64,000 nt of DNA, from NCBI GenBank assembly GCA_022846075.1, contig AP025582.1:992001-1056000 (forward strand). The letters run 5' to 3'. This DNA is from Oscillospiraceae bacterium. Lineage in GTDB: Bacteria > Bacillota > Clostridia > Oscillospirales > Oscillospiraceae. The translations under genes and the position numbers were made by a program. Under the pieces are notes generated by a model. That model searched no databases. It had not been told where the DNA came from and saw nothing but the letters and a program-made list of their open reading frames with translations. This document shows positions 52,208 through 63,786 of this stretch, piece after piece. The first letter of the stretch is position 1. The number at the start of each line of letters is the position of its first letter.

Positions 52208-52276
52208 ACGCCTGTGCTTGACTTGCGGCGGGAAAGTTGTAAAATGGAGAAAACGCAAGTCAGGCAGGTGAGGAAG

Positions 52277-52618
52277 ATGGCCCGTCCGGTCAAATGCAGG
52301 CGCGTATGCGCCCTGCCTCAGTTCCAGGAGTTCGGCCCCGGCGAGAAGGCCTGCACCGGCCAGGTGGAGATGGGGGTGGACGAGTACGAGGCCGTCCGCC
52401 TCATCGATCACCTGGGTCTGTCCCAGGAGGAGGCCGCCTCCGGAATGGGCGTCAGCCGGGCCACGGTCCAGGGCATCTACGATTCTGCCCGGAAGAAGCT
52501 GGCCGCCGCCCTGGTGGAGGGCAAGCGCCTGCGGGTGGACGGCGGGGCCTACCAGGTCTGCCCCCGGGGCAGGCAGTGCCGGGGGACGGGCTGCTGCCGC
52601 CGGGAGGAAGCGGACTGA
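52277..52618 (+). CDS. DUF134 (UPF0251) DNA-binding protein
   Basis: A 113-residue protein. MARPVKCRRVCALPQFQEFGP, then VDEYEAVRLIDHLGLSQEEAASGMGVSRATVQGIYDSARKKLAAALVEGKRLRVDGGAYQVC is the whole DUF134 domain, a sigma-like HTH, with a Cys-rich end (CRGTGCCRRE). Members often sit near dinitrogenase iron-molybdenum-cofactor-domain proteins; one lies at 56424 in this window. Start at 52277 (AGGTGAGG). Confidence 0.9.
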   Translation: MARPVKCRRVCALPQFQEFGPGEKACTGQVEMGVDEYEAVRLIDHLGLSQEEAASGMGVSRATVQGIYDSARKKLAAALVEGKRLRVDGGAYQVCPRGRQCRGTGCCRREEAD

Positions 52619-54014: not shown

Positions 54015-54876
54015 GGCGGACCTCCTCCTCCAGCCCGGCGGAGCGCAGGCCGACGCGGATCGCCTCCATGGTCTGCAGGGCGGCGGGGCCGTCTCCCGCC
54101 CGGAGGCAGGAGGACAGGATGTGCAGATAGTGGCGCAGGTCATGGCGCAGGATGCGCCGCTGTTCCTCGGCGGCCAGGTCGGCCTCCCGGGGCCGGGCCA
54201 GAGCGGTCACCTGGGCGGTGAGGACCGCACTGTCCACCTCGCTCTCCTGCCAATGCCCCAGCTTTTGAAAAAAGTAAAAGGAGGCCCAGTAAAAGATCAG
54301 GGACAGAAGGGCCAGCAGATAGGTAAAGACCTGTACATAAGGAAGGCCGCGGCGGGCGTCGTAGTTCGGGGTCAGCAGGAGGAACAGGAACAGGCTGCAC
54401 AGGCATATGGGCATGAGGGAAAAAACCAGCCAGCCCCGCTTCAGGGTGTGGTAAACCTCCTGAAAGACGGGGCGAAAGACCCCGATATGAAACGCCAGAA
54501 AGGCCCCGTCGAGGAGAAGGCGCAGCAGGGTGCGGTGGATGGGCAGATAGAAGCAGGCCATGCTGCACACGGTGGTGCTCAGGTAGGTGAAGAGCAGGCT
54601 GGTGGCGGCCACAAAGAGGAACCGGGCGTCCCGCACCGCGCTGAAGGACCAGCAGACGGGCAGAAGGACGAGCCAGTACAAAGCGACCCGGACGACAACG
54701 GGCAGGGCCCGCATGAAGGGAGACAGGCCAAACCAGAGCGCGGCCGGGCCCGCCAGGAGAAAGAGCACCACCCGGGCCTGGAGGGAGACACGCCAGCGGT
54801 CGTTGAGGGCGTACATATAGGCCACCGCCATGGCGCCGATGAGCGCGGAGGCCATAAGATCCAGCGCCGCCGTCAA
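54004..54876 (-). CDS. AgrC-like half kinase: membrane domain and phospho-acceptor box, no ATPase
   Basis: A 290-residue protein with about seven helices (to about 215), then the histidine box EEQRRILRHDLRHYLHILSSCLRAGDGPAALQTMEAIRVGL, typical of GHKL kinases. It stops at the point where the ATPase domain should begin (VRHGQ, end). Together with the next gene, which has the ATPase but not the His box, it can make one working kinase by trans-phosphorylation (inference). It starts at a TTG overlapping the response-regulator stop (TTGA), or at the ATG at 54855. Confidence 0.82.
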   Translation of the reverse strand: MTAALDLMASALIGAMAVAYMYALNDRWRVSLQARVVLFLLAGPAALWFGLSPFMRALPVVVRVALYWLVLLPVCWSFSAVRDARFLFVAATSLLFTYLSTTVCSMACFYLPIHRTLLRLLLDGAFLAFHIGVFRPVFQEVYHTLKRGWLVFSLMPICLCSLFLFLLLTPNYDARRGLPYVQVFTYLLALLSLIFYWASFYFFQKLGHWQESEVDSAVLTAQVTALARPREADLAAEEQRRILRHDLRHYLHILSSCLRAGDGPAALQTMEAIRVGLRSAGLEEEVRHGQ

Positions 54877-55598
54877 GGGCGGTCACCGGACAGGTAGTCC
54901 ATGTACTGCTGGCGGAATTCCCTCCTCCGAAGCTGGGAGACGGCGATCTCCGTCCCATCGGACAAAATCACGGACTGGCCCGTCAGCCGGAGGATATGTT
55001 CGGCGTTGATGAGATAGGAGCGGTGGGGCTGGAGGAAGAGGCCGCTCTCCAGAAGAGGCGCGGCGGCGGAGAGAAAGGGGACCCGGATGGTCCGGCCGCG
55101 GATACAGGCCCCGTCGGTGAGATGGTAAAAGACCCGGTGGTCGGTGCACTCCAGGTAGAGGACCCGGTCGACGGACACCACCACCGATGCGCCGCCCTCG
55201 GCGGCCAGTTCCACGGGAAACGGACGGGGAGCGGCCAGCAGCTCGTCCAGCGCGGCATAGAGGGGATCGGCCTGGACCGGCTTAAGCAGGTAGTTTTTTG
55301 CCCGGACCTGAAAAGCGTCCAGGGCGAAATCCGGGGTGCTGGTGAGAAAGACCACCGCCGCCGCGGGGCGGATGGACTTCAGCATCCGGGCGGTCTCGAT
55401 CCCCGAGAGGCCGGGCATGAGGATATCCAGCAGGCACAGGTCGAAGGGGATCCGCTCCGCCGCCCGCAGAAGGTCCTCGCCATGCTCAAAGGGGAAAAGG
55501 GTGAGGGAGGGGAAGGGACGCCGACACCGGTATTCCTCCAGATATCCCCGGATCTCGTTGAGTTCAATGGGGCTGTCGTCGCAGAGTGCGATATTCAT
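54873..55598 (-). CDS. LytTR (AgrA-type) response regulator
   Basis: A 241-residue regulator. Receiver: LCDDS acid pair near 5, acceptor Asp in LCLLDILMPGLSG, VVFLTSTPD, YLLKPV. LytTR DNA-binding domain from about 130: VLYLECTDHRVFYHLTDG, FLQPHRSYLINAEHI, and ILSDGTEIAVSQLRRREFRQQYMDYL. It is the first gene of the three-gene set with the two half kinases. No AgrD-like peptide or AgrB protease gene is adjacent. Confidence 0.9.
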   Translation of the reverse strand: MNIALCDDSPIELNEIRGYLEEYRCRRPFPSLTLFPFEHGEDLLRAAERIPFDLCLLDILMPGLSGIETARMLKSIRPAAAVVFLTSTPDFALDAFQVRAKNYLLKPVQADPLYAALDELLAAPRPFPVELAAEGGASVVVSVDRVLYLECTDHRVFYHLTDGACIRGRTIRVPFLSAAAPLLESGLFLQPHRSYLINAEHILRLTGQSVILSDGTEIAVSQLRRREFRQQYMDYLSGDRP

Positions 55599-55838
55599 GT
55601 GGCTGCGCTCCTTTTTTACGCGGGATATGTCGATAGTGTATCATGGGGGCCAGGGCTTGTAAATTTAGAGATGTGAGTTTCCAAATATTTGTGTGCGGCG
55701 GGGAAAAATTATTTGTGACCTTCCAGAAAATTCAAAATTACACGAAAAATAACCGGTATCTGCACGGATGATATCGGCCGCTCGGCCCCGCTTTCCTGTA
55801 AAATAAAAGTAGATCGACTGGAAAGCAGGTGATAGGTC
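55599..55838. promoter_or_regulatory. Divergent control region between two LytTR genes
   Basis: A+T-rich. ATTTGTG appears at 55687-55693 and 55711-55717, a 24-bp step. LytTR proteins bind paired direct repeats about two helix turns apart, so this is a candidate site. No gene seen. Confidence 0.4.
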
Positions 55839-56369
55839 ATGGGTGTGACTGTGATCGTATGTCCGGCGACAGTGGACATCCAGACGGTGCTTTCCCGCTG
55901 CCGGAAAAAGGCGCCCGGGCTGGAAGTCAGGGTGGAGAAGGCGCGGGACGAGGCGGAGCTGGAAAGCCGCCTCCGGGCTTTGGCCGGATCGGAGAGAAAC
56001 ACCTTTACCGTCAACACCAAGGGAGGGGTGCGGATCGTCCAGGCGGACAGCATCATGTTGTGCCGGGCCGAGGGGCATCGCTTCCGCCTGTGGCTGAACG
56101 ACGGGAGTCAGCTGCTCAGCTGTACCACCCGGGTCCCCTTCTCTAAGAATGTGGCTCCGCTGCTGAAAATGGACCGGTTCCTGCGGACCGGGGCCACCGT
56201 TCTGGTGAGCCTGGACGCCGTCGAGGTGATCCGGGACGGCCACATCTGGATGACCAACGGCATGAAGCTGAGCTTTTCGGCCAGGTGGCAGGCTTTGGCG
56301 GAGCGGACCCTGCGCTACGGCCGCCTGGGCAAGAGCGGAAAAATGGGCGCGGAGCCTTCCGAGGTGTGA
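55839..56369 (+). CDS. LytTR-domain protein without a receiver domain
   Basis: A 176-residue protein. After a short N-terminal part (MGVTVIVCPATVDIQTVLSRC) lies a LytTR domain: FTVNTKGGVRIVQADSIMLCRAEGHRFRLWLNDGSQLL, then MDRFLRTGATVLVSLDAVEVIRDGHIWMTNGMKLSFSARW. It has no phosphorylation domain. Divergent from the agrA-like gene; could compete for or share its sites (inference). AAAGCAGGTGATAGG upstream of the ATG. Confidence 0.8.
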   Translation: MGVTVIVCPATVDIQTVLSRCRKKAPGLEVRVEKARDEAELESRLRALAGSERNTFTVNTKGGVRIVQADSIMLCRAEGHRFRLWLNDGSQLLSCTTRVPFSKNVAPLLKMDRFLRTGATVLVSLDAVEVIRDGHIWMTNGMKLSFSARWQALAERTLRYGRLGKSGKMGAEPSEV

Positions 56370-56383
56370 ACAGCGGCCGAAAA

Positions 56384-56417
56384 AGGGACGGACTGTATGG
56401 ACAGTCCGTCCCTTTTT
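56384..56417. terminator. Bidirectional terminator between convergent genes
   Basis: AAAAAGGGACGGACTGT-ATGG-ACAGTCCGTCCCTTTTT. Confidence 0.92.
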
Positions 56418-56423
56418 AGCGGC

Positions 56424-56828
56424 TCAATGGTTTCCGGAACAGCCGGCCTTGTCCTCGTGACAGCCGTGATCGCCGCAGGTGTGGCCGCCCCCGTGGTGAT
56501 GAGCGCATACGGTATCCGGGTCGAAGGAGAGAGAGCCGGCGAGCAAAGCCTCCACGGCGGCGTCGGCCGGGGCGGAGACACCGGGGTAGAGCTGAATGCC
56601 GGCCTGGGCCAGGGCGGCCCGGGCGCCGCCGCCGATGCCGCCGCAGATGAGAGTATCCACGCCGCGCTCCGCCAGGAACCCGGCCAGGGCCCCGTGGCCG
56701 CTGCCCTGGGTGTCATGGACCTGGGCGGAGACCACCTTGTTGTCCGCCACGTCGTAGATCTTGAACTGTCCGCAGTGGCCGAAATGCTGGAACACCTGGC
56801 CGTCCTCGTAAGTGACCGCGATCTTCAT
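56424..56828 (-). CDS. NifX/NifB-type dinitrogenase iron-molybdenum cofactor domain protein
   Basis: A 134-residue protein. MKIAVTYEDGQVFQHFGHCGQFKIYDV and GHGALAGFLAERGVDTLICGGIGGGARAALAQAGIQLYPGVSAPADAAVEALLAG is the Nitro_FeMo-Co domain. The C-terminus is rich in His and Cys (HHHGGGHTCGDHGCHEDKAGC), a metal-binding tail. No nitrogenase genes are seen; such proteins in non-fixing anaerobes probably handle iron-sulfur or other metal clusters. AAAGGAGG before the ATG; its promoter overlaps a 22-bp palindrome. Confidence 0.9.
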   Translation of the reverse strand: MKIAVTYEDGQVFQHFGHCGQFKIYDVADNKVVSAQVHDTQGSGHGALAGFLAERGVDTLICGGIGGGARAALAQAGIQLYPGVSAPADAAVEALLAGSLSFDPDTVCAHHHGGGHTCGDHGCHEDKAGCSGNH

Positions 56829-56894: not shown

Positions 56895-56940
56895 GATTCC
56901 GGCCCCTCCCGGTGATATTGCCGGGAGGGGCCGGAGCGGT
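56895..56940 (-). terminator. Terminator of the lux-like cluster
   Basis: Minus strand: CCGGCCCCTCCCGG-CAATAT-CACCGGGAGGGGCCGG, followed by TGTTTTTATTATT, just past the alcohol dehydrogenase stop. It closes the seven-gene cluster. Confidence 0.85.
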
Positions 56941-58068
56941 TTACCGGTAAGCGGCCCGGAGGATGGCCACGGCCTCCTCATCAGTGAGTGGGGCGGGGTC
57001 GTTGAAGAAGAGATAGGGGGCGGTTTCCTTGGCCTCGGCGGCCAGGGCGGGCAGCTCCTCCGGCGTGACGCCGTACTCGCTGAGCCTGACTTCCCCCATC
57101 CCGCACTGATCCATGAGCCGGGAGAGGGCCTTGGGGAAGTGGCCCCGGTTGAGGGCGGTGTCCAGCTTGGCGAAGGCCCCGTCGCAGGCGTGGCGGTCGG
57201 CGAAGTGCTGGTAGTAGGGGAGGGCCAGGGCCAGGAGCCCCGCCCCGTGGGGAAGGGAGGGGTGGCGGCCCGAAAGAGCGTGCTCCAGGGCGTGGGCGGA
57301 GCAGGAGCGCATCCCCATCCCCGCCAGCACCGCCCCCAGGGAGACCTGTGCCCGGGCCTCCAGGTCGGAGCCCTCCTCCAGAACGGCGGGGAGGCCCTGG
57401 GCCAGCAGCTCCACAGCCTTGAGGGCGTACATCTCGCTCATGGGGTCGCTGTTTTTGTTGATGACGGTCTCAATGGCGTGAAAGAGGGCGTCAAAGCCCT
57501 GGTAGGCGGTCTGCCGCAGGGGCATGGAGAGGGTGAGGGCGGGATCCACCACCGCCAGGACGGGGGCGCCGTCCAGGCGGCCCAGCCCGGCCTTGAGACC
57601 GCTTTCCTCGTCCGTGATGACGGCCCAGGGGCTCACCTCGGCGCCGGAACCGGCGGCGGTGGGGACGGCCACCACGGGCAGGCCGGGCAGGGAGAAGGGC
57701 TTGCGGTCGCCGTAATCCCGCCACTGCCCGCCGTTGGCGCGCAGCAGCCCGGCGGCCTTGGCGGCGTCGATGGAGCTGCCGCCCCCCAGGCCCACCAGAA
57801 AGTCGCACCCCTCCGCCCTGCACTGTTCGGCGGCCTGGGCGGCCTGGGCGGCGGTGGGGTTGGGGGAGACACCGTCAAAGACCGAGGCGGCCACCCCCGC
57901 TTTTTCCAGCTGGGCCAGGGTCTCCGCCAGGGCCTCCCCCCGCTTGACCTGGCCGGGGGAGGTCACCACCAGGGCCCGTTTGCCGGGGAGGGCCTGGCGG
58001 CCCAGCCGCCGGAGCTGCCCCTCGCCAAAGAGAAGCTTAGTGGGGAGATAATGGGTAAAGCCGATCAT
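56941..58068 (-). CDS. Iron-containing alcohol dehydrogenase
   Basis: A 375-residue group III dehydrogenase. The NAD(P) motif is GLGGGSSIDAAKAAGLL; VPTAAGSGAEVSPWAVI and the metal ligands (His in QGFDALFHAIE and in the ALEHALSG and HGAGLLAL stretches) are visible. As the last gene of the cluster beginning at 63450, behind a LuxC-like reductase, it most likely reduces the aldehyde made there to an alcohol (inference). GAGGAGG upstream of its ATG; 12 bases after the ligase gene. Confidence 0.9.
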   Translation of the reverse strand: MIGFTHYLPTKLLFGEGQLRRLGRQALPGKRALVVTSPGQVKRGEALAETLAQLEKAGVAASVFDGVSPNPTAAQAAQAAEQCRAEGCDFLVGLGGGSSIDAAKAAGLLRANGGQWRDYGDRKPFSLPGLPVVAVPTAAGSGAEVSPWAVITDEESGLKAGLGRLDGAPVLAVVDPALTLSMPLRQTAYQGFDALFHAIETVINKNSDPMSEMYALKAVELLAQGLPAVLEEGSDLEARAQVSLGAVLAGMGMRSCSAHALEHALSGRHPSLPHGAGLLALALPYYQHFADRHACDGAFAKLDTALNRGHFPKALSRLMDQCGMGEVRLSEYGVTPEELPALAAEAKETAPYLFFNDPAPLTDEEAVAILRAAYR

Positions 58069-58080
58069 GGGGATACCTCC

Positions 58081-59511
58081 TCAGGGATTGGTTGGCAGGG
58101 CGGTGTAGAGGGTCTTGCCCGCCTCGTTTTTGGGGATGGCGTCCACCGCCGTCACCGAGAAGCCCGAGCGGGCCAGGTGGGTCACGCCGGAGAGGTAGTC
58201 GATGGCCGCCTGGGGCAGCTCCGGGTCGGCGCTGTCGGTGAAGATGGTCATGAGGTCGTCCCGCCCGGTGCAGGCGAACTCCGCCTCCGGGAAGCGGGCG
58301 GAGAGAAGCCGCTCCGACTCGTCCAGGCCCACCCGGTTGCCGAAGAGCTTGATGAACCGTTTTTTCCGGCCCACGATGTAATAGTAGCCGTCGGGGTCCC
58401 GCCGGGCCATGTCGCCGGTGTGGAGGACCCCCTGCCAGTCGTCGCCCCGGGCCAGGTCGGCGGCACAGGCCGCGTAGCCCATGGTGACGTTGGGGCCGTG
58501 GTAGATGAGCTCTCCCACCTCCCCCTCAGGGACCGGGGCGCCGCTGTCGTCGGTGAGGCGGAAGGAGCCGCCGGGGATGGGGATGCCCATGCTGCCCACC
58601 TTGCTCAAGGCGTTCTGATAGGGCAGATAGCCCATCCGGGCGGTGGCCTCGCACTGGCCGTACATGACGTAGAACCGGCGGCCGGTGTCGGCGCACCACT
58701 GGGCGAAGACCTGATGGAGCTCCTCGGGGAGCTTGCCCCCGGCCTGGGTCATGTACCGCAGGGAGGGCAGGTCCATGCCGGTGAGCCGCAGCCGGTGGAA
58801 CATCTTATAGGTGTAGGGCACCCCGGCCAGGGAGGTGGCCTTCTCCTTCAGGAAGAACCGCCAGAAGTCCCCCTCCAGCACGCCGTGGGTGGTGAGGAGG
58901 ATGGCGGCCCCCACCAGGGCGTGGCTCTGGACGATGGACAGGCCGTAGGTGTAGTTCATGGGCAGGGTGGTGATGGGCCGCTCGGTGTCGGTGAGCTCCA
59001 GGTATTCGGCGATGGAGCGGGCGTTGGCCTCGATATTGGCCCGGCTCTGCCGCACCAGTTTGGGACTCCCGGTGGAGCCGGAGGTGGTGAGGAGGACGGC
59101 CAGGTCAGGGTGGAGAGCGGGGGAGACCGCCCCGGTCCGCCGCAGGAGGGCGCAGCCGTACTCGGCCAGCATGCAATCCATGGGGCCCAGGCTGTCCCGG
59201 CTCTCCTGGGGAACGTCGCCGGGCAGAAAGACCCAGGCGGGGGAGTAAGCCGCCGCCAGCTCGGCCAGCAGGGCGGGGTCGATGTGGGCGTCCAGCAGGA
59301 CGGGCACCGCCCCCAGCCGGAGGCAGGAGAGGTAGGCCAGCAGGACGCCGGGGGTGTTCTCGCACAGGAGGAAGCCCAGGCTCCGGCCCTCCGCCCCGGC
59401 GGCAAAGCGGGCGGCGAAGGCGTCCAGGTCGCCGTAGGTGAGGGTGAGGCCGGTGTCGGAAACGCACAGGGTACGCCCGGCCCAGCCGGGTTCGGCGGTA
59501 AAGAGCGCCAT
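58081..59511 (-). CDS. AMP-binding acyl ligase (fatty acyl-CoA/ACP ligase-like)
   Basis: A 476-residue adenylate-forming enzyme. LTTSGSTGSPKLVRQS (P-loop-like A3 motif), YGQCEATARMGYLP (A5), GELIYHGPNVTMGYA and LHTGDMARRDPDGYYYIVGRKKRFIKLFGNRVGLDESE (A7-A8) and the catalytic C-terminal Lys (IPKNEAGKTLY) are all seen. It activates a carboxylic acid with ATP for transfer to CoA or to the ACP of the cluster. The N-terminus is short for the family. AGGAGGGATCC precedes the start. Confidence 0.88.
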   Translation of the reverse strand: MALFTAEPGWAGRTLCVSDTGLTLTYGDLDAFAARFAAGAEGRSLGFLLCENTPGVLLAYLSCLRLGAVPVLLDAHIDPALLAELAAAYSPAWVFLPGDVPQESRDSLGPMDCMLAEYGCALLRRTGAVSPALHPDLAVLLTTSGSTGSPKLVRQSRANIEANARSIAEYLELTDTERPITTLPMNYTYGLSIVQSHALVGAAILLTTHGVLEGDFWRFFLKEKATSLAGVPYTYKMFHRLRLTGMDLPSLRYMTQAGGKLPEELHQVFAQWCADTGRRFYVMYGQCEATARMGYLPYQNALSKVGSMGIPIPGGSFRLTDDSGAPVPEGEVGELIYHGPNVTMGYAACAADLARGDDWQGVLHTGDMARRDPDGYYYIVGRKKRFIKLFGNRVGLDESERLLSARFPEAEFACTGRDDLMTIFTDSADPELPQAAIDYLSGVTHLARSGFSVTAVDAIPKNEAGKTLYTALPTNP

Positions 59512-59525
59512 AAGGATCCCTCCTG

Positions 59526-60713
59526 TTAACAGTTGATGACCCGGGACAGGGCTGTGATCAGGTCCTTCCCGTCCCAGGTGAGGTCGAATTCCATGGCCTG
59601 GCCTACGTTTACCACCCGGTCCACGCCGGGGAGGGCCAGGCGGGCGATGACCCCGGCGGCCTCCCGGGGCGGGATGCCGGCCACCGTGAGGGTCTGGGTC
59701 CGCTGGGTGACGAAGGGGGCCATGTCCTCCAGGGCGTCGATCTCACGCTCCAGGAAGGCGCCGAAGGCCAGATGGCACCGGTCCAGGTCCACCCCGTCCG
59801 ACTGCAGGGGCAGGCGGTAGAGGAGGTTCCCCGCCCGGCGGACCGGGCCCAGGCCGGGCTGGGTCATGGCCAGCTCACAGAGGGCCTCGTACTTCCGGGC
59901 CGCCTTGTAGGGGGTGAGGTCATAGGCCTGGGCCGCCTTCCGCTCCAGGGCCGCCCAAAAGCGCTCCCTGGCGGCGGCCCCGTCGGGCAGGTCCTTGCGC
60001 CACAGCACCAGCTTGGGGCTGGAGCAGGCGTTCTGGTCCATGAGATAGGTGTCGTTATAGAATCGGTGGGCCAGCAGGTCCAGGTCGGCCTGAGACAGGT
60101 TGGCCACATGGGCCTCGCTCATGAGGCACAGGGACCACCGGTCGGGAAAGACCAGCTCCACCGCCCCCGGCTTCATGGGAAACCTCCGCATGGCCTCCAC
60201 CGTGGCGTCCCCGCCCCAGACCACCTTGCCGTCCGCCTCCATGAGGTAGGCGGCGGTGCGGTCCTCCTCCTCCCGGGGGTAGGAGACAAGGCCGGTGCGG
60301 GCCCTCAGCCCGGCGTGTTCCGGGCGGGAGAGGACCTGGTCCAGAAGGGCGCAGAACAGCCGTCCCCGCTCCTCCAGCCGGGAGGACATGCGCAGGAGGT
60401 TGGCGCAGCCGGAGAGCATGCCCACGGCCAGGGAGTAGGCAAAGAGAAGGGGCACGTTGGCGGGGGGCACGTGGAAGAGAAGCCCCCGGCCCACCCGGAG
60501 AGCTCCCTCATACCGCTTTTTCAGCTCCTCCATTCGGGAGCGGCGGCACCAGAAGGCGAAGGAGGCCGCCTCCGTGTCCCCTGCCAGGGGGGAGGAGCGG
60601 AGGGCGAAAGAGAAGTGGTCGAAAAAGTCCAGGACCCGGGGATCAAAGACCTCCCAGGCCTCGGCTTTGGGGCAGGCCGTTCCGGCCAGCACCGTGAGCA
60701 TATCAGCCGCCAT
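59526..60713 (-). CDS. LuxC-like acyl-CoA/acyl-protein reductase
   Basis: A 395-residue LuxC-family protein of the aldehyde dehydrogenase superfamily. LLFHVPPANVPLLFAYSLAVGMLSGCANLLRMSS resembles the LuxC cofactor region; the likely catalytic Cys lies in YLMDQNACSSPKLVLW. LuxC reduces an acyl group held as a thioester to an aldehyde with NADPH. Its start overlaps the LuxE-like gene by 11 bases, as reductase and synthetase act together in the lux fatty-acid reductase. No luxAB luciferase is present. Confidence 0.86.
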   Translation of the reverse strand: MAADMLTVLAGTACPKAEAWEVFDPRVLDFFDHFSFALRSSPLAGDTEAASFAFWCRRSRMEELKKRYEGALRVGRGLLFHVPPANVPLLFAYSLAVGMLSGCANLLRMSSRLEERGRLFCALLDQVLSRPEHAGLRARTGLVSYPREEEDRTAAYLMEADGKVVWGGDATVEAMRRFPMKPGAVELVFPDRWSLCLMSEAHVANLSQADLDLLAHRFYNDTYLMDQNACSSPKLVLWRKDLPDGAAARERFWAALERKAAQAYDLTPYKAARKYEALCELAMTQPGLGPVRRAGNLLYRLPLQSDGVDLDRCHLAFGAFLEREIDALEDMAPFVTQRTQTLTVAGIPPREAAGVIARLALPGVDRVVNVGQAMEFDLTWDGKDLITALSRVINC

Positions 60714-61773
60714 AGGTATCGCTGCACCCCCTTACTTCCGCTTTCGGGATTCGGCCCGTGATGGTGAAATACTTGCCCTTCCAGCCGCAGGGGCAGTCGT
60801 CCTCCCCCAGCAGGACGCCCACGTCCTCGGTGAGGAGGGCGTGGCCGGGGTAGGACTTGGGCAGGAGGGACAAAACCTCGATGACCCCCGGCTCCCCCAC
60901 GGCGCAGACGCCGTGGTCGGCGGGGCGGCGGATGAGGATGTCGGAGTAAGAGCTGGCGTGGAGGTGGCCCTCGGGGCACTCCAGATAGACGCAGCCGGTC
61001 TGCTCTGCCATACCGTAGTAGTCCACCACCCGCCGGATGCCCGCCACGTCCCGGAGGACCTGCTTGAACTCGGCGGGGGAGACCGCCTCATTGCTGAGCT
61101 TTTTCCAGCCGCCGCCGTGGACCAGGACGCTGTCCCCAAAGTCCAAACGCAGGCCCTTTTCCCGCAGGGCTTGGCAGAAGTGCTTCCAGATCATGAAGGT
61201 AAAGCCGAAGAGGAGGATCTTCCGGCCCTTGTACTCCTCCAGGAAGGACTCCACCGCCTCCACGTCCAGCTCCATATCGTCGTTCAGGGCGTAGCGCATG
61301 GGGGAGCCGAAGATGGAGAAGCCCAGGATGCCCGCCCCCCGGGCGGAAAACATGGCCCGGTCCCGGAGGACCTTTTTGGAGTCGATGATGAGCAGGGGGA
61401 GCCGCTCCGGTCCCACCAGCTGGGAGACGATGCGGAACAGGGTTTTCTGCTGGTTGGCCGAGGTGCCGGCGTCCAGGTGGATTTTGGACACCCGCTGCCC
61501 CGTGGTTCCGGAGGAGGTGACGGTTTTGAAGATCTGTTCCTCGGGGATGCTCCGCAGCTCCAGGTCCTTGAAAGCGGACACGGGGAGGAAGGGCACCTCC
61601 TCAGGGGAGAGGGGGCCCTCCGGCGTCCCCAGCACGTCCAGCAGGGCGGCGTAGGGGGGGCAGTGGGAGCGGTGGTGGGCGGTGAGTTCGGTGAGCCCCT
61701 CGGAGAAAAGGGCCCGTTTTTCCGGGCGGGCCAGGCCAAAGGGGTCCTTGGCCAGCAGGGCGTCATAGTCCAT
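60703..61773 (-). CDS. LuxE-like acyl-protein synthetase
   Basis: A 356-residue protein of the LuxE / acyl-protein synthetase family, ATP-grasping ligases distantly like the AMP-binding group. FKTVTSSGTTGQRVSKIHLD is the nucleotide loop. LVHGGGWKKLSNEAVSPAEFKQVLRDVAG, DYYGMAEQTGCVYLECPEGHLH and PCGWKGKYFTITGRIPKAEVRGC are characteristic. In bioluminescent bacteria LuxE activates the fatty acid and hands it to LuxC. It overlaps both neighbours (11 bases each). Confidence 0.88.
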   Translation of the reverse strand: MDYDALLAKDPFGLARPEKRALFSEGLTELTAHHRSHCPPYAALLDVLGTPEGPLSPEEVPFLPVSAFKDLELRSIPEEQIFKTVTSSGTTGQRVSKIHLDAGTSANQQKTLFRIVSQLVGPERLPLLIIDSKKVLRDRAMFSARGAGILGFSIFGSPMRYALNDDMELDVEAVESFLEEYKGRKILLFGFTFMIWKHFCQALREKGLRLDFGDSVLVHGGGWKKLSNEAVSPAEFKQVLRDVAGIRRVVDYYGMAEQTGCVYLECPEGHLHASSYSDILIRRPADHGVCAVGEPGVIEVLSLLPKSYPGHALLTEDVGVLLGEDDCPCGWKGKYFTITGRIPKAEVRGCSDTYGG

Positions 61774-62416
61774 AAAAATCTTTCACCTCCTGGGTCAGAA
61801 TGTAGGGGTCCTTGTGGCCGGGATAGATCCAAAGGCCGGGCTCCAGCGCGGCCAGCCAGGGCTTGGCCACACGCTCGTAGGTCTCGGTGTCCCCGCCGGG
61901 GAGCCGGGTGATGACCGCCTCCCCGGGGATGAGGTAGTCGCCGGAGAAGAGGATGTCCCCGTCCCAGCGGATACAAATACTGCCCGGCGTATGGCCGGGC
62001 AGGGGGGTGAGCCGGAGGGTGTGCCCCTGCCAGGTCATGGTGTATTCGTCCTCAAAGGTCTGGTCCGCCGGGGCGCAGACGAAGGGGGGATAGTGGGCCC
62101 CGGGCTTGCCCTTAAAGGTGAGGTAGACCTCCATCATGGCGGACATGTTGAGGTGCTTGTTCCGCAGTCCGGCGTCGCAGGCCCCGGAACAGAGCACGGG
62201 GGCGTCGGGATACTTGCGGCGCAGGGTCTCTAGGCCCAGCATGTGGTCACAGTGCTCGTGGGTGAGCAGGATCCACTCTGGGACAAGACCCCGCTCCTCC
62301 AGAAGAGAAGCGGGGCCTTGGGGATGACAGGGGTCGATGACCACCGCTCTGTCCCCCTCGGCGCAGACGTAGCAGTTGCCCTCGGCCAGGGGATCGGTCC
62401 AGCGCAGGATGTCCAT
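61763..62416 (-). CDS. Metallo-beta-lactamase-fold hydrolase
   Basis: A 217-residue zinc hydrolase with THEHCDHM (HxHxDH), a second His in PLPGHTPGSICI, Asp in FSGDYLIPG and a last His in YPGHKDPY: the set of glyoxalase-II-like enzymes. In the cluster it could release acids from thioesters, the part played by LuxD in the lux operon (inference). Five bases after the ACP stop. Confidence 0.85.
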   Translation of the reverse strand: MDILRWTDPLAEGNCYVCAEGDRAVVIDPCHPQGPASLLEERGLVPEWILLTHEHCDHMLGLETLRRKYPDAPVLCSGACDAGLRNKHLNMSAMMEVYLTFKGKPGAHYPPFVCAPADQTFEDEYTMTWQGHTLRLTPLPGHTPGSICIRWDGDILFSGDYLIPGEAVITRLPGGDTETYERVAKPWLAALEPGLWIYPGHKDPYILTQEVKDFYGL

Positions 62417-62421
62417 GGGGA

Positions 62422-62658
62422 TCAGAGCTCCACGCCGTACTTGGCCAGGATGGTCTTGCCCTTCTCATAGGAAGAAAAGTCCAGCACGTCCAGGGTGGAC
62501 AGGCTGATCTTGAACATCTCCTCCAGGGCGCTCATGAATTCCATATGGCCCACGCTGTCCCAGGCGGGGATGCCCCGGTAGGTGATGGTGGGCAGGTCCT
62601 CGGCCTTCACCCGGAAGCTTTCCATAAAGAGCTTGTCGTATTTCTCCAGATTGGTCAT
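62422..62658 (-). CDS. Acyl carrier protein
   Basis: A 78-residue carrier protein. Phosphopantetheine site Ser in AWDSVGHMEFMSALEEMFKISLS. It is a dedicated copy, not the fatty-acid AcpP: DSVGH replaces the usual DSLD, and the surrounding YRGIPAWDSV pattern is that of specialised-pathway ACPs. Sits between the FabZ fusion and the hydrolase. GAGGAGG upstream. Confidence 0.9.
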   Translation of the reverse strand: MTNLEKYDKLFMESFRVKAEDLPTITYRGIPAWDSVGHMEFMSALEEMFKISLSTLDVLDFSSYEKGKTILAKYGVEL

Positions 62659-62727
62659 TGGGGTGTTCCTCCTCAGTTCTGTTCTAAATATACCAAAGGG
62701 AGGGAAAACCTCCCGGATGGGTCGGGA

Positions 62728-63450
62728 TCAGCGCATGGCCAGGGTGACCTCGGCCTCGGCGCACAGATTGCCCTCCACAAAGGCCCGGCCCTTGCAGATG
62801 GCCATGCCGAATTCGGCGCGTTCACTCAAAAGACTGGCGTGGAGCTCCACGGTGTCCCCAGGGGAGATGGGGCGGCGGAAAAAGACCTTCTCCGCCCCGG
62901 CGAAGAGGGGGGCCTTCCCGGCGTAGCGGTCCAGGGAGAGAACGATCAGGTCGGCGCACTGGGCCATGGCCTCCAGGGAATAGACACCGGGCAGCACGGG
63001 CCGGCCGGGGAAGTGGCCCTGAAAGATATCCCATTTGGGATCTATGTAGAGGGAAGCCACCGCCTCGCTGCCGGGGACCAGGCGGCTGACCGTGTCGATG
63101 AGGAGCATGGGGGAGCGGTGGGGGAGGACGGTCAGCACCTCCTCGTGGGTCAGGCTCTTGGCCTCCCCGCCGAAAACCAGTTCCTTGAGTTTTTCCTGGG
63201 CGGGGATGAAGTCCAGGTCCCCCGCCAGGGGTACCTGCCGGGCCTCGGGGACCGCCAGGCCGGAGACGTTGGTGCACCGGTTGGTGCAGCCGTTGGCGAT
63301 GAGGGCGGCGGCGTAGGGCACTCCGTCCTCGGCGGGGACAAATTCCATCTCCGGCAGGGCCGCCTCCAGCCGTTTTACCAGCTTGACCCGGTCATACCGG
63401 GGATTGCAGCCGCCGCAGTAGCGCACACCGACCTGGGGCTTGTCGCTCAT
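62728..63450 (-). CDS. Fusion of a CGGC/Cys-rich domain with a FabZ-type 3-hydroxyacyl-ACP dehydratase
   Basis: A 240-residue protein. Residues 1-75: VGVRYCGGCNPRYDRVKLV and ANGCTNRCTN, four Cys (12, 15, 55, 59), a likely metal- or cluster-binding CGGC-type domain. Residues 100-240: a FabZ hot-dog fold with LPHRSPMLLIDTV, GHFPGRPVLPGVYSLEAMAQ (His 146, Glu 160 catalytic), KVFFRRPISPGDTV. It would dehydrate a hydroxyacyl-ACP. The first gene of the cluster. Start MSDKPQ at 63450 chosen; an ATG six codons earlier is possible. Confidence 0.85.
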   Translation of the reverse strand: MSDKPQVGVRYCGGCNPRYDRVKLVKRLEAALPEMEFVPAEDGVPYAAALIANGCTNRCTNVSGLAVPEARQVPLAGDLDFIPAQEKLKELVFGGEAKSLTHEEVLTVLPHRSPMLLIDTVSRLVPGSEAVASLYIDPKWDIFQGHFPGRPVLPGVYSLEAMAQCADLIVLSLDRYAGKAPLFAGAEKVFFRRPISPGDTVELHASLLSERAEFGMAICKGRAFVEGNLCAEAEVTLAMR

Positions 63451-63655
63451 TCTCTGAACACCTGCCATACTTAAAAGAGTTTATACCTGTTCCAAATAAC
63501 CATGCGAAGCGCCGCTTGGATGGAGATCTGAAATCAGGCAAAATAGCCGCTATGCGGCTATTTTATCATGCCCTCCGCCAGATGTCCAGCCCTTTCCGGG
63601 GGTGTTTTTCCGAGGCCTGTTCCGAGGTGCGAAAGAAAAAAGGCGAAAAAATATC
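63451..63655. other. Gene-free stretch with hairpin between divergent operons
   Basis: A hairpin AAAATAGCCGC-TAT-GCGGCTATTTT lies at 63539-63564. A possible promoter for the lux-like cluster on the minus strand is a weak TTGGAA / TAAGTA pair near 63475-63500. No gene found. Confidence 0.5.
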
Positions 63656-63710
63656 TTGACAGCTTTGGCAGGATGTGGTACCTTCATATTGAAGTTAGCG
63701 CTAGCTAACT
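63656..63710 (+). promoter_or_regulatory. Promoter and iron-box-like operator 1
   Basis: TTGACA (63656-63661), 17 bp, TACCTT (63679-63684). Just downstream is AGTTAGC-GCTA-GCTAACT (63693-63710), perfect 7-bp arms, similar to DtxR/IdeR-type iron boxes. Confidence 0.65.
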
Positions 63711-63734: not shown

Positions 63735-63785
63735 ATGAACTGTCAAAGCCCCGTTCTTTTTTGCAAAAAGGTTAGCTGGAGCTAA
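63735..63785 (+). CDS. Possible 16-residue leader ORF
   Basis: ATG at 63735, product MNCQSPVLFCKKVSWS, between the two operators; its stop lies within operator 2. Only a weak ribosome site (GGGGGAAAAG, 10 bases away). It may be chance. Confidence 0.22.
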   Translation: MNCQSPVLFCKKVSWS

Positions 63786-63786
63786 C
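63771..63786 (+). promoter_or_regulatory. Iron-box-like operator 2
   Basis: GTTAGC-TGGA-GCTAAC: same arms and same 4-base spacing as operator 1, and just upstream of the ribosome site of the DUF3793 gene. Confidence 0.6.

Follow-up and report, generated by a model that had tools for sequence, protein, structure and literature searches.

An operon of LuxE- and LuxC-like enzymes with a private acyl carrier protein and its link to the 4-hydroxybutyryl-CoA dehydratase pathway of Clostridia

What does a set of LuxE- and LuxC-like enzymes do in an operon that holds no luciferase gene? The question is raised by seven genes in a 64,000-nucleotide stretch of DNA from an Oscillospiraceae bacterium (assembly GCA_022846075.1, contig AP025582.1, positions 992,001 to 1,056,000; hereafter the window), which encode a fusion of a cysteine-rich domain, here called CGGC, to a FabZ-type dehydratase, an acyl carrier protein (ACP), a metallo-beta-lactamase-fold hydrolase (MBL), LuxE, LuxC, an AMP-forming acid ligase and an iron-containing alcohol dehydrogenase (Fe-ADH). 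None of these seven operon genes encodes a luciferase; no genome-wide search for luxAB was made. The operon probably specifies a carboxylic-acid reductase whose parts are separate proteins built around a private ACP, and which would act on a short, likely C4, acid of the 4-hydroxybutyrate/crotonyl-CoA/butyrate network. An initial annotation of the locus had suggested a fatty alcohol, a fatty-aldehyde signal or a lipid modification as its product; because the closest related clusters are joined to genes for 4-hydroxybutyryl-CoA dehydratase (AbfD) and a CoA-transferase, a short C4 acid fits better than a fatty product.

All seven open reading frames (ORFs) stand in the ORF list of the window on the minus strand, at the expected place between positions 56941 and 63450, and coordinates and Pfam matches agree with the close same-strand packing described by the initial annotation: gaps of 69 nt separate FabZ from the ACP, 5 nt the ACP from MBL, 14 nt LuxC from the ligase and 12 nt the ligase from Fe-ADH, while MBL and LuxE, and LuxE and LuxC, overlap by 11 nt each. 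The longest FabZ frame starts at 63468, and the methionine start shared with relatives lies at 63450. The gene order is preserved, at 76-87% identity, in Pseudoflavonifractor sp. Marseille-P3106 (locus L022), and comparison by eye found an identical TGGACA-17-TAAAAT promoter upstream of that operon. Two promoter-like sites were observed in the region versus 0.7 expected, and the terminator is the best of 15 terminator-like sites, with 4.6 expected by shuffling; a NifX-like gene (56828-56424) lies beyond it. With this promoter, this terminator, and the order and promoter shared with L022, the seven genes are one self-contained operon, from promoter to terminator (Table 1).

Pfam matches above cut-off were obtained for FabA, Lactamase_B, LuxE (PF04443, 4.4e-46), LuxC (PF05893, 1.1e-27), AMP-binding and Fe-ADH, and no match in Pfam or NCBIfam was found for the ACP. 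The ACP carries a WDSxGHM site, the Ser35 of which is kept in 67/67 aligned rows. When the window proteins were aligned with ORFs of the fetched loci, LuxE Cys350 was kept in 83/83 rows, LuxC Cys230 in 80/80, ligase Lys466 in 69/69 and the MBL residues His53, His55, Asp57 and His58 in 21/21; FabZ His146 and Glu160 are invariant in 10 aligned fusions. These FabZ residues, like the other invariant ones, are presumably catalytic. In alignment with a solved LuxE (7xc6_E), Cys350 falls on the cysteine of the C-terminal GCS; for LuxC, no relative was found in the PDB at E <= 0.01. With its Pfam matches and catalytic residues intact, and with the catalytic cysteines and the ACP serine retained in homologues, the locus is, as first annotated, a LuxE/LuxC acyl-reductase set with a private ACP, ligase, hydrolase and alcohol dehydrogenase.

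A scan of 84,980 genomes returned 486 LuxE relatives, from which 80 loci were kept and mapped by tblastn; counts over 81 loci include one more, L016. The module stands in two contexts. Form A, with the order ACP-MBL-LuxE-LuxC-ligase, is complete in 13/80 loci (a further run, in L023, is cut by a contig end). An AbfD-like protein and/or its CoA-transferase was found in 10/80 loci (L024, L025, L026, L028, L029, L034, L038, L039, L041 and L065), with Flavonifractor, Treponema vincentii and Anaerostipes among them. Form B, which combines ligase, ACP, LuxE and LuxC (L030, L031, L033, L043, L044, L047, L093 and others), is accompanied by a DegT aminotransferase, a split transketolase, NeuB, a thiamine pyrophosphate (TPP) enzyme or KASIII, partners that occur in 53/81 loci; some of its clusters (L032, L044, L047, L060 and L088) hold two LuxE/LuxC pairs, and form B clusters look like a stepwise assembly of sugars from acyl aldehydes. 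Both partner sets never occur together (0/81 loci) and neither occurs in 18/81, an exclusion with P 7e-6 if the loci were independent, which they are not. The window operon shares the MBL order and the CGGC fusion with the abfD-linked form, and no glycan-type partner (DegT, transketolase, NeuB, TPP enzyme or glycosyltransferase) was found among its annotated neighbours (54873-56828, 52214-52618 and L017:5804-8750), annotation having covered part of the window ORFs. MBL and a PF00975-type alpha/beta thioesterase are likewise mutually exclusive, each present in 21 of the 81 loci and none holding both (P 6e-4, again on an assumption of independence that the loci do not satisfy). As the two replace each other across loci, the thioesterase-like role already proposed for the hydrolase is supported by analogy.

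The link to abfD was also seen in a class sample of 291 genomes, in which AbfD was counted at E <= 1e-100. The window CGGC domain as query gave 15 matches in 12 genomes, and AbfD was found in 14, including all 12 with CGGC (Fisher 1.5e-19). The distance to abfD is at most 4.4 kb for 14 of the 15 CGGC copies, all but the one in the window, and 14/17 abfD genes have a CGGC neighbour; those without one are the abfD of G374 (54% identity), that of G409 (42%) and the main abfD of the window genome. LuxE relatives at E < 1e-80, a cut-off picked after the list was seen, occurred in 11/291 genomes, 6 of which are AbfD genomes (p 1.5e-6, or 1.7e-5 with the window genome left out), and five of these six have LuxE no more than 8 kb from abfD, the remaining one being the window genome; at a looser E <= 1e-10, LuxE was found in 19/291 genomes, 6 of them with AbfD. 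The form A operon of G074 (L015) encodes an HpaB-type protein that matches 4-hydroxybutyryl-CoA dehydratase (1u8v, 1.6e-236) and a CoA-transferase that matches butyryl-CoA:acetate CoA-transferase models below their cut-off; it further encodes a NifU-like protein, a sigma-54 activator most like PrdR and a membrane protein of a transporter family whose L041 member matches the solved PurT (7tak). The lux run of G391 (L129) extends into genes for a thiolase, a crotonase and a 3-hydroxyacyl-CoA dehydrogenase. A LuxE tree, for which the window and L022 were labelled as members beforehand, rows outside 330-420 aa were dropped and long branches were flagged, clusters the abfD-linked rows (2 label changes versus 13.3 in shuffles), and so points weakly to the abfD link. 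Two loci (L130:10438-14633 and L131:617-5260) carry a diverged ACP-ligase-LuxE-LuxC set, at 22-39% identity, next to an abfD operon, and L131 also has a free MaoC; this set either represents a divergent branch or was recruited a second time.

The CGGC domain ties the operon to AbfD most closely. CGGC is the name of a motif rather than of a database family: no Pfam or NCBIfam family matched the domain at E <= 0.01, and the best hit against the PDB by sequence reached an E of only 0.66. An AlphaFold model from 11 sequences had a pLDDT (predicted local distance difference test) of 82.6 and a pTM (predicted template modelling score) of 0.73, and Foldseek returned 0 matches to it at E <= 0.001, the best being 0.28. 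Cys12, Cys15, Cys55 and Cys59 are invariant in the 10 aligned fusions; this half is a four-cysteine domain, probably iron-sulfur or thiol-active. CGGC is fused to FabZ in 10 loci and to MaoC in the lux-bearing operons of L041 and L129, and it is free-standing between nifU and the CoA-transferase gene in several lux-less genomes (L125, L126, L127 and L132). We propose that the CGGC half was borrowed from the 4-hydroxybutyryl-CoA dehydratase operon.

The window genome has its main abfD operon elsewhere, at C1:783-789 kb (L107). Identities of its products to the form A operon are 76% for the CoA-transferase, 49% for NifU, 92% for AbfD, 75% for the transporter and 60% for the activator, and no match to CGGC was found in it. 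In its AbfD and CoA-transferase the genome resembles the clostridial fermentation of 4-hydroxybutyrate and gamma-aminobutyrate (GABA), a pathway in which we know of no ACP, LuxE or LuxC step. The L107 operon has a full-score sigma-54 promoter (14.9/14.9). Across 30 operon starts picked by hand, a sigma-54 site scoring at least 13.4 was found at 23, versus 7/3000 random 400-bp stretches; the seven starts without one are those of L034, L124 (where a 14.4 site lies at a greater distance upstream), L129 (twice), L133, L022 and the window. Separate lux operons with their own sigma-54-type promoter, like that of the abfD operon, are found in L041, L130 and L131. We read the window operon as the lux half of a form A operon that would have been split from abfD and now stand under an ordinary sigma-A-type promoter. 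The same genome holds two further loci of related content: at C1:356500-359540 (L108), a second abfD-like gene (59%), a free-standing CGGC gene and a CaiB-type CoA-transferase gene with full-score sigma-54 promoters of their own, and at C1:375165-377494 (L018), another LuxE/LuxC pair, only distantly related (about 28-30% identity), with no ACP or ligase homologues nearby. Among 16 genomes of the genus, 14 have LuxE at E <= 1e-10, 12 of them only the distant type; the close LuxE occurs in two, and the second of these, G445, shares contig coordinates with L022.

The pairing of abfD with acp-caiC-luxEC is itself already published as a predicted sigma-54 regulon: Table 1 of PMC6615313 lists abfD-nifU-hyp-ach-golB and acp-caiC-luxEC as targets of the enhancer-binding protein XanR in Clostridium, with butyrate/butanol synthesis as function. 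The initial remark that no described product was known still holds, but the gene pairing was in print. Our loci resemble this entry in joining AbfD, a NifU-like protein and a CoA-transferase/hydrolase to ACP, ligase, LuxE and LuxC, and the window genome has both acp-ligase-luxE-luxC together and an operon of abfD, nifU, a CoA-transferase gene and a sigma-54 activator gene. By position in the tabulated order, 'hyp' may correspond to CGGC. Unlike the regulon as tabulated, the window has CGGC fused to FabZ, MBL and Fe-ADH added, the two halves unlinked and the lux half without a sigma-54 promoter. The Table 1 entry gives no mechanism, and XanR is not taken up in section 9 of PMC6615313. We found no account in the literature of the CGGC-FabZ or CGGC-MaoC fusions, the alternative thioesterases, a split copy outside sigma-54 control or a mechanism, and a search for LuxE jointly with 4-hydroxybutyrate gave no relevant title among the matches listed.

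From these genes we infer the enzymatic steps, substrate and direction of the module. The AMP ligase would use ATP to attach a short acid to the private ACP; LuxE would take the acyl group onto its own cysteine and pass it to LuxC, which would reduce it with NAD(P)H to an aldehyde, and Fe-ADH would convert the aldehyde to an alcohol. The MBL hydrolase would clear or release stalled acyl-ACP, in the manner of LuxD or a type II thioesterase, and the FabZ half would interconvert 3-hydroxyacyl and 2-enoyl thioesters, which for C4 means 3-hydroxybutyryl and crotonyl. That the substrate is likely C4 is suggested by the AbfD link, by the retention of a dehydratase, FabZ or MaoC, and by the thiolase, crotonase and 3-hydroxyacyl-CoA dehydrogenase genes of L129.

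Several observations weigh against this proposal. Some 260 kb separate the window operon from that of abfD, and no sigma-54 promoter was found before the window operon (best score 10.0/14.9 in 400 bp; 9.7 in L022). At E < 1e-80, 8/14 AbfD genomes of the class sample have no LuxE, and in a family sample of 150 genomes LuxE at that cut-off occurs in 2/15 AbfD genomes versus 2/135 others (p 0.05). As most AbfD genomes are without a close LuxE, the lux module is a patchy accessory of the abfD pathway; of the expected conservation in relatives, the gene order holds in L022 and the wider distribution is uneven. Treponema vincentii L029 has ACP-MBL-LuxE only, and across 21 kb nothing matched LuxC or the ligase. 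In the LuxE tree, the position of the window and L022 among the abfD-linked rows is not firm, and since window LuxE shares 55-61% identity with LuxE of glycan clusters, its role cannot be read from sequence alone. Another Fe-ADH, of the abfD-linked type (76% identity), is encoded at 855 kb of the window genome; the window Fe-ADH is only 26% identical to it and, with that type present elsewhere, may serve another aldehyde. An ATP-costly reduction is odd in a fermenter. Two adenylating enzymes stand in one route; in LuxCDE, activation of the acid is a task of LuxE itself, so one of the two enzymes here, ligase or LuxE, may have taken on a different role. Finally, the cluster that holds the lux module of G391 also contains a SucD/AdhE-like gene, which weakens a simple replacement of SucD.

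Some of the same evidence could also be read differently. The module could form C4 alcohols as an electron sink, with crotonate, 3-hydroxybutyrate, 4-hydroxybutyrate or butyrate reduced to the aldehyde and then, via Fe-ADH, to crotyl alcohol, 1,3- or 1,4-butanediol or butanol. The FabZ or MaoC hydratase fused to CGGC, the genes downstream of lux in L129, the closest solved relatives of Fe-ADH, which are methanol and 1,3-propanediol dehydrogenases, and the placing of the regulon under butyrate/butanol synthesis in Table 1 of PMC6615313 all agree with such a sink. We nevertheless regard it as rather doubtful, as AdhE could reduce the same thioesters as CoA esters without ATP and Fe-ADH ends the module only in the window and L022.

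A specific form of our preferred explanation has succinate as the acid: ACP-bound succinate would be reduced to succinate semialdehyde and, by Fe-ADH, to 4-hydroxybutyrate, feeding the CoA-transferase and AbfD, so that the module would be an ATP-dependent stand-in for SucD. The window genome, with its AbfD and CoA-transferase, has no CoA-acylating aldehyde dehydrogenase of the SucD/AdhE/EutE type at E <= 1e-30; an enzyme of the SucD type is absent from 3/7 lux-bearing AbfD genomes searched (the window genome, G358 and G431) versus 1/8 lux-less ones, the one lux-less genome being 82% complete, and a SucD-like gene lies within 6 kb of abfD in the lux-less G220 and G296. These numbers are too small for a test, however, SucD/AdhE-like genes are found elsewhere in G074, G269 and G411, and the FabZ/MaoC dehydratase is left unexplained. 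As the sole function of the module, the route is weakened by the SucD-like gene of G391 and by the 855-kb Fe-ADH; we keep it as an unlikely alternative.

It is quite improbable that the module supplies an aldehyde for glycan or lipid modification, in which a transketolase, TPP or NeuB-type enzyme would condense the LuxC product into a surface sugar. The same five proteins (ligase, ACP, thioesterase, LuxE and LuxC) do keep glycan-type partners in the 53 loci counted above, and the fatty-acid-like genes acp, caiC or AMP synthetase, luxE, luxC and fabG are described in flagellin glycosylation islands of Aeromonas group II and enterobacterial types, in PMC7874193 and PMC4875605, which also list Mangrovibacter and Kosakonia, the genera of form B loci L043 and L093. 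The islands as described there share the ligase-ACP-LuxE-LuxC module with the window and differ in having glycan partners instead of AbfD and a CoA-transferase, with no CGGC fusion seen. The window operon lacks any such partner among its annotated neighbours and resembles the abfD-linked form in its MBL order and CGGC fusion.

An oxidative direction, from alcohol through aldehyde and acyl-enzyme to acyl-ACP, would let the set catabolise a C4 alcohol, 1,4-butanediol for example, and feed it to the 4-hydroxybutyrate pathway. LuxC proteins are members of the aldehyde dehydrogenase superfamily, Fe-ADHs are reversible and an AbfD operon would stand downstream, but ligase and LuxE both spend ATP in the reductive sense, and we hold this direction to be very unlikely. 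Least probable of all is that a fatty-acid reductase of the LuxCDE type makes a long-chain fatty aldehyde, alcohol or signal, since the window proteins, while sharing the LuxE and LuxC Pfam families and their conserved catalytic cysteines, fall far below the NCBIfam bioluminescence equivalog cut-offs (55.9/550 bits for LuxE, 24.7/750 for LuxC), have Lactamase_B as sole hydrolase in place of LuxD, add an ACP, a ligase and a dehydratase, and are tied to C4 metabolism.

Some features of the operon and its flanks stand apart from these questions. The perfect palindrome that overlaps the start region is a possible operator or RNA hairpin, and was not seen in L022 on comparison by eye; it was rejected as a regulon marker, having only one copy in the genome and so flagging no co-regulated genes. 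Two further palindromes of the form GTTAGC-N-GCTAAC (63693-63710 and 63771-63786) lie upstream of a plus-strand pair of genes identified by Pfam as DUF3793 and flavodoxin, with similar ones at the same position in L022 (by eye); we take them to resemble metal-regulator boxes of the DtxR type. On the plus strand, a 796-aa open frame (57139-59529) antisense to the ligase and Fe-ADH is most likely an artefact of GC-rich sequence.

Table 1. Positions of the operon genes and of the signals around them, in window coordinates.
Feature	Position	Strand	Basis or key residues
Sigma-A-type promoter TGGACA-17-TAAAAT, TG before -10	63560..63588	-	promoter scan
Perfect palindrome, 11-bp arms, overlapping the start region	63540..63564	no strand	
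CGGC-FabZ fusion	62728..63450	-	Pfam FabA, fusion alignment
CGGC domain, N-terminal part of the FabZ fusion	about 63157-63450	-	Cys12, 15, 55, 59
Private acyl carrier protein, 78 aa, WDSVGHM	62422..62658	-	ORF, alignment
Metallo-beta-lactamase-fold hydrolase (MBL), proposed thioesterase	61763..62416	-	Pfam Lactamase_B, alignment, slot comparison
LuxE-like acyl-protein synthetase, Cys350	60703..61773	-	Pfam, alignment to 7xc6_E
LuxC-like acyl reductase, Cys230	59526..60713	-	Pfam, alignment
AMP-forming acid ligase ('caiC' of PMC6615313), C-terminal Lys466	58081..59511	-	Pfam, NCBIfam, alignment
Iron-containing alcohol dehydrogenase (Fe-ADH), last operon gene	56941..58068	-	Pfam, NCBIfam
Intrinsic terminator, 15-bp GC-rich stem and T run, directly after Fe-ADH	56898..56935	-	terminator scan

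Gut bacteria ferment 4-hydroxybutyrate (gamma-hydroxybutyrate, GHB), GABA and succinate to butyrate via AbfD, an oxygen-sensitive radical enzyme. We tentatively suggest that in gut Clostridia and Treponema a multi-enzyme acid reductase with a private carrier may form an unrecognised branch of 4-hydroxybutyrate/crotonyl-CoA metabolism, with its core re-used elsewhere for surface sugars and with CGGC as a new partner of AbfD. If true, the AbfD route would have an unexpected reductive branch, the predicted products of common gut genera such as Flavonifractor, Pseudoflavonifractor and Anaerostipes would be altered, and LuxE and LuxC in many genomes would gain a function beyond light or fatty aldehydes. 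The tight pairing of CGGC with AbfD points concretely to an accessory protein of this enzyme that is as yet unstudied.

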